A stretch of DNA of 64,000 nt, taken from NCBI RefSeq assembly GCF_009363095.1, contig NZ_CP045295.1:3157501-3221500 (forward strand), written 5' to 3'. The notes beneath the pieces were generated by a model, which was not told where the DNA came from, made no database searches, and saw nothing but the letters and a program-made list of their open reading frames with translations. This DNA comes from Paenibacillus cellulositrophicus (GTDB lineage: Bacteria > Bacillota > Bacilli > Paenibacillales > Paenibacillaceae). Of this stretch, positions 19,918 to 21,831 are shown piece after piece. A program made the translations under genes and the position numbers. Within the stretch, counting starts at the first letter, position 1; every line of letters starts with the position of its first letter.

Positions 19918-20355
19918 TCACGTGGGGTTTGCCGCGCTGCCCGCTTCCTCGATCTGCTTAATGACATCCGTCAGCGTAATGCCATCCAGATACCGCTCCA
20001 GCGCGGCCTCTCCGCCGCTGTATATCTGATCCATAATTCCCTCGATATTGGAAGCCACTTCGCAAGGCAGCTCCTCTCCGCCTGAACACCAGCTCGGCTT
20101 CAAGGATCCTCTTGCAAGCAGACGGTACAAATCACCCAATGTGACCTTCTCGGTGCCTGGATTCAGCAAATAGCCTCCGCCGACACCTTCCTTGGTCGTT
20201 ACATACCCCTGTTTGCGCAGCAGTCCAAGCACTTTCCGAATCCGTGCCGGATGCGTGCAGACACTCTTGGCAATCTCTTCACTGTTAGCCATTCGTTCTT
20301 CTTTCAAGCTAAGAAGGGTTAAACAATGGACGGCAATGTTGAACTCACTATTCAT
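19918..20355 (-). CDS. Rrf2 family transcriptional regulator (YwnA-like)
   Basis: The 145-residue protein begins MNSEFNIAVHCLTLL and has an N-terminal winged helix (SEEIAKSVCTHPARIRKVLG, then KEGVGGGYLLN wing near residue 60), typical of Rrf2 regulators. It resembles YwnA more than CymR, which starts differently. Cys90 and Cys99 (WCSGGEELPC) could sense redox state or bind metal, but the three-Cys cluster of IscR/NsrR is not present. TAAGGGGGAG precedes the ATG. A dyad at 20373-20395 suggests autoregulation. Confidence 0.9.
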   Translation of the reverse strand: MNSEFNIAVHCLTLLSLKEERMANSEEIAKSVCTHPARIRKVLGLLRKQGYVTTKEGVGGGYLLNPGTEKVTLGDLYRLLARGSLKPSWCSGGEELPCEVASNIEGIMDQIYSGGEAALERYLDGITLTDVIKQIEEAGSAANPT

Positions 20356-20395: not shown

Positions 20396-20580
20396 TGCTT
20401 GTGTCAACCGGATTGCCAGGGTTTGGAACGTTTTCCGCTGAAAAATAAATAAAGGAGGTTAACGAGACTGCCGGAGCTGTTTTTCCTCCGGACCAGTATG
20501 CTTAGTTTGACTTAATTCCCCTTGGATTAAACCTCCTCTCCTGACAGATCCAGCGATCGTTTTCCCGGCTTTGAAAAGTT
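20396..20580. other. Intergenic region between the Rrf2 gene and the rlmA leader
   Basis: No gene is seen. AGGAGGTT (20453-20460) is repeated inverted as AACCTCCT (20530-20537). CCGGAG and CTCCGG form a hairpin near 20474-20494, and TTAATTCC with GGATTAA makes an imperfect dyad near 20514-20530. The AGGAGG here has no start codon at a suitable distance. Confidence 0.35.
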
Positions 20581-20589
20581 TGTTATACT
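20571..20589 (+). promoter_or_regulatory. Extended -10 promoter of the rlmA leader
   Basis: TGTTATACT at 20581-20589 matches an extended -10 (TGnTATAAT). No good -35 lies at 17 bases. It places the RNA start near 20596, about 65 bases before the leader peptide. Confidence 0.55.
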
Positions 20590-20662
20590 AAAGCGGGATC
20601 CTGTCCTTTAGATCTAAGGCTGCAGGCTCCCTAAATCCTGCGTGAAAGAGGTTGTGTAAACC

Positions 20663-20692
20663 ATGATCATTCAATTTATTCGTTACCGTTAA
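20663..20692 (+). CDS. Leader peptide MIIQFIRYR of the rlmA-type gene
   Basis: ATG at 20663 follows AAAGAGGT by 10 bases and opens a nine-codon frame MIIQFIRYR ending in TAA at 20690-20692. It ends in Arg-Tyr-Arg, which fits the +X+ (Arg/Lys-any-Arg/Lys) rule for macrolide-dependent ribosome stalling, as in ErmD-type leaders (MRLR). The terminator 5' arm begins 7 bases after the stop. A ribosome stalled at the last codons would cover it, allowing read-through. No protein evidence exists; the inference rests on binding site, motif and position. Confidence 0.7.
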   Translation: MIIQFIRYR

Positions 20693-20698
20693 TGTAAG

Positions 20699-20765
20699 GT
20701 ACAGATAACAAAAGCCCCGTTTTTTAAAAAATACTGACGAGGGTTTATTTGTCTGTGCCTTTTTC
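20699..20765 (+). terminator. Attenuator ahead of the rlmA-type gene
   Basis: GGTACAGATAACAAAAGCCC (20699-20718) pairs along its length with GGGTTTATTTGTCTGTGCC (20741-20759), with a few mismatches and G-U pairs. TTTTT follows at 20760-20764. A second A/T hairpin (TTTTTTAAAAAA) lies in the loop. It sits between the leader peptide and the methyltransferase start, so it should block expression unless prevented from folding. Confidence 0.75.
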
Positions 20766-20782
20766 ATTCAAACGGAATACGA

Positions 20783-21769
20783 ATGAATGGGGTGTTTTTG
20801 GTGCACAACGCTAAATTAACCGTGCTCGCCGGACTGATATCCCGGCACGAGCACCTGTTTCGCTGTCCGATCTGTTCCCGCCCATTGAAAATGGACGGAT
20901 CGCGCAGCATGATTTGCGGCAGTCGGCATTGTTTTGATTTGTCCAAGGACGGTTACATCAACTTGATTCCGCACGCCGTGCGGTCCAAATACAACAAAGA
21001 CCTGTTTACTTCACGGCGGGAAACCAGCCGCCACGGCTTGTTTGACCCGCTGATCGATGCGATTCGCAAGAAAATTGATGATATGGCTTCATCTAGATCA
21101 GAGGAGCTCCGCATTTTGGATGCGGGATGCGGCGAGGGCTCCCATTTGGCGGCGATTCTGTCTGCCCTGCAGAAGCCGGATGCTCCAGACATCCTGGGCG
21201 TGGGCGTGGATATCGCCAAAGAAGGGATTCGCCTGGCCGCCAAATCGGGTGCACCGGCGATCTGGTGTGCGGCCGACCTGGCCGGCAGCCCGTTTGCCGA
21301 CCGGCAGTTCGACGTCATCCTGAACATCTTGTCTCCGGCGAACTACCAGGAGTTCCAGCGCCTAATCCGGGATGATGGCCTGGTAATCAAAGTCATCCCG
21401 GGGAGCCGATATCTGCAGGAAATCCGTGCCTTGTTCCAAGGTGAGGCTCCAAACCGGCCGTCTCCGGCCGAGGAGTTTACCGACGGATACACAATCGACC
21501 GCCCGTCTCCTGCTGCCGACAGAACCACCCGACGGCTCGTTCCTGTTACCGGACGTACCGCTGAATTATTCGGCAGGAATTTTGCCAGCGTGGATGTTCA
21601 GCATGTGGAATACAACATGCTCGTCGCCGGAGAAGCTTTGGAGCATCTTCTGCGCATGACCCCGCTCTCCTGGGGCGTGCCGGAAGCAGCGATTCAAAAG
21701 GCTGCCGGGCAAGGCCCCCTGCGTGTCACCTTTGATTATGTAATGTTATGCGGCGGAATGAACGAATAA
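20783..21769 (+). CDS. rlmA: 23S rRNA (guanine-N1)-methyltransferase, RlmA family
   Basis: Family members methylate N1 of G745 or G748 in 23S rRNA at the peptide exit tunnel; the G748 type (TlrB) contributes to tylosin and mycinamicin resistance. The product has an N-terminal zinc ribbon (CPIC near residue 28, then C and HC around 46-50, DLSKDGYINLI), then the SAM site LDAGCGEGSH (about residue 114) and NILSPANYQEFQRLI. It is 328 residues from the ATG at 20783. A GTG at 20801 with GGGGTG 7 bases upstream is an equally good start, giving 322. A leader peptide and attenuator precede it, suggesting induction by ribosome-targeting drugs. Whether it modifies G745 or G748 cannot be told. Confidence 0.88.
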   Translation: MNGVFLVHNAKLTVLAGLISRHEHLFRCPICSRPLKMDGSRSMICGSRHCFDLSKDGYINLIPHAVRSKYNKDLFTSRRETSRHGLFDPLIDAIRKKIDDMASSRSEELRILDAGCGEGSHLAAILSALQKPDAPDILGVGVDIAKEGIRLAAKSGAPAIWCAADLAGSPFADRQFDVILNILSPANYQEFQRLIRDDGLVIKVIPGSRYLQEIRALFQGEAPNRPSPAEEFTDGYTIDRPSPAADRTTRRLVPVTGRTAELFGRNFASVDVQHVEYNMLVAGEALEHLLRMTPLSWGVPEAAIQKAAGQGPLRVTFDYVMLCGGMNE

Positions 21770-21790: not shown

Positions 21791-21831
21791 AAAGCCCCTA
21801 TCGGCCAGCAGCGGCCGGTAGGGGCTTTTTT
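21791..21831 (+). terminator. Terminator of the rlmA-type gene
   Basis: AAAGCCCCTATCGGCC and GGCCGGTAGGGGCTTT form a long stem around AGCAGC with a TTTTTT tail, 22 bases after the stop codon. Confidence 0.9.

Follow-up and report, generated by a model that had tools for sequence, protein, structure and literature searches.

The leader of an RlmA-type methyltransferase gene in Paenibacillus cellulositrophicus is, in our judgement, very probably a chromosomal switch of the tlrB type, by which tylosin would induce an rRNA methyltransferase. The mechanism of this switch is already known from B. subtilis, and the window, i.e., the whole 64,000-nucleotide stretch of contig NZ_CP045295.1 analyzed here, contains a well-preserved member of the tlrB leader family. 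The elements of the switch, their conservation and their pairing were established directly from the sequences. The leader, of around 205 nt, lies between a divergent Rrf2-type regulator gene and the methyltransferase gene. The parts named in the initial annotation (an extended -10, a MIIQFIRYR frame with its own SD, a terminator stem with TTTTT, and the RlmA-type gene) can all be read in the DNA, while two further elements, an outer hairpin (20669-20694 / 20765-20793) and a NusG-type motif, TTATTT (20745-20750), were absent from it. The features of the locus are as follows.

19918-20355, minus strand: divergent Rrf2-type regulator gene
20581..20589, plus strand: extended -10 promoter element TGTTATACT, read from the sequence
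near 20596, plus strand: inferred transcription start
20645..20651, plus strand: leader SD AAAGAGG, weak, 11 nt before ATG 20663, from the sequence
20663..20692, plus strand: leader ORF MIIQFIRYR with a single TAA stop, from the sequence; identical to the printed B. subtilis TlrB peptide
20684..20689, plus strand: Tyr8 (P site) and Arg9 (A site) codons, putative stall site by homology to the toeprint described in PMC6851288
near 20700-20701, plus strand: expected toeprint, by the same homology
20669..20694, plus strand: outer SD-sequestering hairpin, 5' arm inside the leader ORF (MFE fold)
20696..20708, plus strand: terminator stem, 5' arm (MFE fold)
20712..20746, plus strand: apical hairpin 20712-20721 / 20736-20746 (MFE fold), candidate pause hairpin by homology to B. 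subtilis
20745..20750, plus strand: NusG pause motif TTATTT (TTNTTT), matched by eye to B. subtilis T123-T125 and U129-U131
20749..20761, plus strand: terminator stem, 3' arm (MFE fold, alignment pairing counts)
20760..20764, plus strand: terminator T-run TTTTT, from the sequence; corresponds to the B. subtilis termination at +142
20765..20793, plus strand: outer hairpin, 3' arm, extending into the methyltransferase SD (MFE fold)
20789..20794, plus strand: methyltransferase SD GGGGTG, a conserved G-rich block ending GTG in the leader alignment
20801..21769, plus strand: tlrB / rlmA-type 23S rRNA (guanine-N1) methyltransferase, GTG start, 322 aa
21791..21831, plus strand: terminator-like hairpin with T-run 3' of the methyltransferase gene, found by eye

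The codons of the leader frame, read directly, are ATG ATC ATT CAA TTT ATT CGT TAC CGT TAA. The TGTTATACT element lies 82 nt upstream of the leader in the window and 81 nt upstream of it in the closest relatives, Paenibacillus sp. XY044 (L064) and Paenibacillus rhizosphaerae (L090), where AAAGAGG also occupies the same position. No good -35 box is visible by eye with the extended -10 at 20581-20589. A simple pattern scanner reported neither the promoter nor the terminator of the leader, the latter because its loop is longer than the scanner allows, and it did not report the terminator-like hairpin at 21791-21831 either. A search of Rfam gave no family at the gathering threshold in the window or in the loci of seven relatives, and a tRNA search returned none. 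On the minus strand, a perfect TTGACA-17-TATAAT promoter (20407-20379) is directed toward the Rrf2-type regulator gene. Upstream of the tlrB promoter, the region 20440-20545 contains a CCGGAG/CTCCGG hairpin and AGGAGGTTAA/TTAAACCTCCT arms; its promoter-proximal part is similar in L064 and L090, and the fold of the intergenic stretch 20440-20560 is ordinary (z -0.92).

The product of the downstream gene is assigned to the RlmA family by several searches. The RlmA zinc ribbon of Pfam (PF21302) is matched with E 1.9e-13 and 50.6 bits against a cut-off of 27, Methyltransf_25 is matched at 31.8 against a cut-off of 27, and two methyltransferase models in total score above cut-off. The closest solved structure by sequence is PDB 1p91, ribosomal RNA large subunit methyltransferase A (RlmA), at E 1.7e-33. 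The enzyme is the sole RlmA match in its genome and is 35% identical to B. spizizenii TlrB. Among NCBIfam models, the G745 (RlmA-I) model outscores the G748 models, all of them below cut-off, and B. spizizenii TlrB shows the same ranking; therefore, the models do not tell the target. Translation most likely starts at GTG 20801, as judged from the SD spacing in relatives compared by eye. The alternative start ATG 20783 lies within the conserved GAATGAATGRGGTG block and was rejected as probably wrong on the position of the SD and on the relatives.

Support comes from the conservation of the leader, for which a comparison of related genomes had been suggested. DNA encoding exactly MIIQFIRYR followed by TRR was sought across the genomes of 84,980 species, from which records very near the window's genome were possibly omitted, and 62 loci besides the window were found. 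An rlmA homologue follows on the same strand in 59 of them by tblastn, with a projected start 118-153 nt away, although among these 59 no ORF longer than 200 aa is present near the expected start in L058, L065 and L072, and L077 and L093 are truncated at the locus end. Two other loci (L070 and L073) end 210 and 264 bases past the leader start, too early to tell. In the remaining one, L040:4071-4400 of Bacillus renqingensis, an intact leader, terminator and SD arm are followed by what by eye is a decayed and truncated rlmA start, i.e., an orphan leader. The initial annotation had also envisaged such leaders before ABC-F genes; none of the 60 informative exact-peptide loci has this arrangement, the next gene always being rlmA or its remnant. 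The exact peptide was searched for genome-wide, and variant leaders were sought only upstream of rlmA.

The conservation extends to the peptide as such. In 25 leaders gathered through rlmA, with the R-x-R codons forming part of the search rule, the minority letters fall at first, second and third codon positions 19, 11 and 55 times. This preponderance of third positions suggests that the peptide itself is constrained, beyond the RNA. The enzymes encoded at the exact-peptide loci are around 33-44% identical to that of the window, with 83-84% for the two closest. A tandem stop is present in 20 of the 63 exact-peptide leaders and is lacking in the window (TAA TGT). In three TlrB-type leaders, the stall motif is followed by an additional basic residue (MIHFIRLRK in L005, MIIQFMRYRK in L096 and MIIQFIRYRR in L099). 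A full-text literature search for MIIQFIRYR returned PMC6851288 as the sole match, and for FIRLR, FIRYR and IHFIR only unrelated papers were among the matches listed.

The RNA of the leader is folded far more stably than expected from its composition: the stretch 20593-20800 reaches -71.1 kcal/mol versus -45.1 +/- 4.3 kcal/mol in shuffled sequences (z -6.0), and none of 200 shuffles was as stable. The initial annotation had placed the 5' arm of the terminator next to the leader stop, and indeed GGTACAG (20698-20704) begins five bases past the stop, opposite CTGTGCC (20753-20759). The terminator stem is conserved as well; its seven basal pairs are formed in 99.1% of cells in 63 sequences, with double changes in three pairs. 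By analogy with B. subtilis, the base of this intrinsic terminator would underlie a ribosome stalled at RYR, and a premature transcript end is expected near 20765-20767.

The outer hairpin was followed in 76 leaders, comprising 13 RLR variants and the 63 with the exact peptide, that of the window among them. In all 76 MFE folds, the leader ORF is paired with the SD arm, by 18-22 pairs each; the script that prepared the segments ended them at the SD (after a fixed 150 bases in L004 and L007), so the pairing was sought within a fixed stretch. The number of paired bases among the last five of the SD is five in 28 leaders, four in 26, three in six and two in 16. Pairing of the two helices holds in 96.9% of the cells of the 63-row alignment, versus 94.1% after shuffling and 28-51% with slid partners. 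Cells changed on both sides number 66 versus 29.6 in shuffled alignments, and the covariation score is 0.226 versus 0.166, neither value being reached in 500 shuffles. Two other counts do not stand out, namely the pairs with a double change (5, matched by 174 of 500 shuffles) and the further pair types (16, matched by 208 of 500). When arms were exchanged between leaders, own leader and SD arms paired at a mean of -21.8 kcal/mol versus -17.9 kcal/mol for swapped ones, and 19% of swapped arms on average (median 11%) were as strong as the own pair. With leaders grouped by their Arg9 codon, own SD arms were the best partners in four of five groups, and CGT leaders did slightly better with two CGG arms. 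Relatedness of the sequences may inflate those pairing, covariation and arm-swap measures that do stand out.

The TTNTTT pause motif is kept in 75 of the 76 leaders, the exception being L015. In the 63-leader alignment, the GGTTTNTTT stretch is invariant or nearly so while the facing arm is variable, which fits a motif read by a protein to cause pausing rather than one kept for pairing. A by-eye alignment to the B. subtilis numbering places the predicted pause at 20754-20756 and its T-tract at 20748-20750. The main NusG of the window's genome has N81-T82, named in PMC12288461 as the residues of NusG that recognize the pause motif. A second, weaker NusG-like match (G000:C1:11605-12162, L138), at 54.3 bits and below cut-off, is present in the same genome.

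The precedent for reading these elements together is the work of Yakhnin et al. (2019, mBio; PMC6851288), in which B. subtilis yxjB was renamed tlrB as the gene encoding RlmA(II). As described there, the gene is preceded by the leader peptide MIIQFIRYR, on which tylosin arrests ribosomes at RYR, Tyr occupying the P site. At 0.5 ug/ml tylosin, a translational fusion rose from <1 to 5-17 units and a transcriptional fusion around 2-fold; the larger effect is exerted at translation, through the SD-sequestering hairpin, and NusG pausing is required. The same paper reports 180 leaders carrying R/K-x-R/K at the C-terminus, upstream of tlrB homologues of Gram-positive organisms. Stalling, pausing, termination, drug specificity and the G748 target are predicted for the window by homology to this system. 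Without drug, the ribosome would complete MIIQFIRYR and depart, and RNA polymerase would partly stop at the terminator around 20765. In transcripts that read through, the leader ORF would fold onto the SD arm (20669-20694 / 20765-20793) and block translation. NusG may hold the polymerase at about 20754-20756, giving a ribosome time to load on the leader. If tylosin or a similar macrolide occupied the exit tunnel, stalling at Arg-Tyr-Arg would place the ribosome over the foot of the terminator stem as well as over the 5' arm of the SD-sequestering hairpin. Transcription would continue, the SD would remain accessible, and the enzyme would be made. Methylation of G748 of 23S rRNA would then lower the action of tylosin and end the induction. 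The initial annotation had proposed that a drug-stalled ribosome on Tyr8 and Arg9 frees the gene from the terminator. This is borne out by what the same peptide does in B. subtilis, but the proposal was incomplete, missing the SD-sequestering hairpin and NusG pausing. It also drew the inducing drugs too broadly: for erythromycin, PMC6851288 reports neither induction of a fusion nor a toeprint (data not shown there).

One alternative, the one drawn in the initial annotation, is transcription attenuation alone, in which covering of the terminator arm by the stalled ribosome accounts for the whole switch. The terminator stem and its T-run do occur and are conserved, as this account expects; however, every one of the 76 leaders also forms the outer hairpin with the SD arm, and in B. 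subtilis the effect on the translational fusion is the larger one (PMC6851288), which makes this account very unlikely. Another alternative keeps the whole switch and changes only the inducer, which would be some other 16-membered macrolide or a ketolide acting in the exit tunnel; it thus overlaps with the tlrB-type explanation. The discussion of PMC6851288 holds that the context of R/K-x-R/K is thought to set drug specificity, and relatives do carry different leaders such as MIIKFIRLR and MIHFIRLR. Nevertheless, the leader peptide of the window is unchanged from that of B. subtilis, and PMC6851288 notes that all nine residues are lodged in the tunnel, so a different inducer seems unlikely, if less so than attenuation alone.

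The least probable account, to which we give almost no credence, is that a chance short ORF lies next to an unrelated palindrome or a constitutive gene. The failure of the simple scanner to report a terminator would fit it, but it is refuted by conservation, i.e., by the 62 exact-peptide loci and by rlmA or its remnant in 60 of 60 informative cases; also, the 141-base stretch of the leader has no second copy in the genome. A mobile palindrome or repeat element was considered separately and rejected on the same single occurrence. Against the tlrB-type switch itself we counted the weak leader SD at its 11-nt distance, the lack of a tandem stop, the scanner negatives, the top score of the G745 model (though B. 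spizizenii TlrB behaves alike), the pairing of only two of five SD bases in 16 of 76 leaders, the two covariation counts no better than shuffles, and the 34 of 100 sampled RlmA genes with neither leader pattern described below.

The survey of leaders upstream of RlmA genes was made on a leader-blind sample of 100 genes, for which the upstream DNA was fetched. The sample was assembled from three overlapping draws that include close relatives: relatives from the genus and order (30 of 60 genomes with an RlmA match, weak ones included), the class (45 of 161 genomes) and the family (43 of 148 genomes). A second RlmA match in G020 (C149), the short or weak L023-L030 and five partial matches (G114, G138, two in G178, and G325) were excluded before the count, and fixed stretches were scanned for the anchorless L124 and L128-L130 and for L164-L174. 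Both leader patterns were written after part of the data had been seen, with GTG and TTG starts counted as M. A TlrB-type leader was found before 53 of the 100 genes, in the forms MIIKFIRLR (15), MIIQFIRYR (13), MIHYIRLR (6), MIHFIRLR (5), MIIQFIRLR (5) and eight rarer ones. Thirteen genes (L018, L019, L021, L022, L103, L110, L122, L162, L164-L167 and L169) have an ErmD/ErmK-type leader instead, e.g., MTHFMRLRFPTLNQ or MVHYIRLRFPALNL, in which R-L-R precedes a tail (FPALN or HSALN, for example), around 260-400 nt upstream in the measured cases. Markov resamples matched the patterns in 1 of 10,000 (TlrB-type) and 13 of 10,000 cases (ErmD/ErmK-type). Of the 34 genes without either pattern, two have other R-x-R frames, MGIHFIRIR in L106 and MSHYIRYMRLR in L170.

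On an RlmA tree of 104 rows (63 A_RYR, 17 A_RLR, 7 B and 17 none), in which the exact-peptide scan makes RYR rows over-represented, the best tree needs at least 10, 8, 4 and 9 label changes for A_RYR, A_RLR, B and none, respectively. Well-supported branches force 4, 2, 2 and 4 of them, thus supporting more than one switch per label but not an exact number.

An RNA element directly 3' of the ErmK-type leader, TTCAAAGGCTCTGN{3,20}CAGAGTAAACGGGA, was found in 20 of the 398 class genomes scanned (L175-L194), with no match to the reversed control among the matches listed. An R-x-R leader frame stands just before the element in 17 of the 20 and was not found there in L179, L186 and L187. The product of the next gene resembles an Msr-type ABC-F protein in 11 cases, RlmA in three (L176, L181 and L193), Mef-type efflux in two, Mph in two, and HflX and Erm in one each; L181 and L193 come from the genomes of L103 and L110. 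Of ten of these proteins run against NCBIfam, HflX, Erm and all but one of the three ABC-F proteins scored above cut-off; the remaining ABC-F and the Mef, Mph and RlmA proteins gave strong matches, yet below the curated cut-offs. For the other ten, the assignment (eight ABC-F, two RlmA) is a by-eye judgement of the sequence. In L176, around 1 kb separates the ErmK-type leader from rlmA, with no same-strand ORF longer than 69 aa, perhaps an insertion in the leader. A narrow literature search found, among the papers listed, no report of an ErmK-type element shared across resistance genes.

Taken jointly, these data lead us to a reading that we favor with some reserve, namely that two exchangeable drug-sensing leader cassettes serve the RlmA (tlrB) genes of Bacilli. 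The TlrB type, as the exact peptide, would occur only before rlmA, its peptide being kept while the enzyme drifts to around 35% identity. The ErmD/ErmK type would travel, standing before at least six kinds of macrolide-resistance genes (erm, msr-type ABC-F, mef, mph, hflX and rlmA). At the middle residue of the TlrB-type stall motif, Tyr and Leu would have replaced one another on more than one occasion, perhaps altering which drug induces. A fully dissected resistance switch of B. subtilis extends, with the same nine residues, into Paenibacillus, and peptide, terminator, SD hairpin and pause motif are retained together. This distribution points to a modular arrangement of drug sensing and drug resistance, with one leader tied to one enzyme and another common to many resistance genes; hence, the choice of the inducing drug would be a testable property of the leader and not of the gene it controls.

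Among known systems, the B. subtilis vmlR leader resembles the one described here in combining pausing with transcription and translation attenuation, as stated in the title of PMC9226507; it differs in controlling an ABC-F protein and in responding to other drugs. PMC10314930 and the text of PMC4335068 give the ErmD/ErmK leader as MTHSMRLRFPTLNQ, and a table of PMC4335068 has MTHAMRLRFPTLNQ for erm(K). With these leaders the tlrB type shares macrolide stalling at R-x-R in a short leader peptide and transcription attenuation, whereas they have an internal MRLR with a six-residue tail, a length of some 250-400 nt and other hairpins. The TTCAAAGGCTCTG...CAGAGTAAACGGGA element of the ErmD/ErmK-type attenuator has no exact match in the window's genome, and the leader in the window differs from the ErmD/ErmK type. 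The closest counterpart is B. subtilis tlrB as presented in PMC6851288. The two differ in host genus (Paenibacillus versus Bacillus), in the length before the leader ATG (about 67 nt in B. subtilis by the numbering of the paper versus about 35 in the window), in the stop (tandem in B. subtilis, single in the window), in the promoter (an extended -10 without a good -35 in the window) and in the enzyme, which has around 30 extra residues around 215-250 relative to B. spizizenii TlrB, taken as a stand-in at 35% identity. They have in common an identical peptide, a terminator directly after it, a leader ORF engaged in an SD-sequestering hairpin, a T-rich pause motif at the same place, and an RlmA-type gene downstream.
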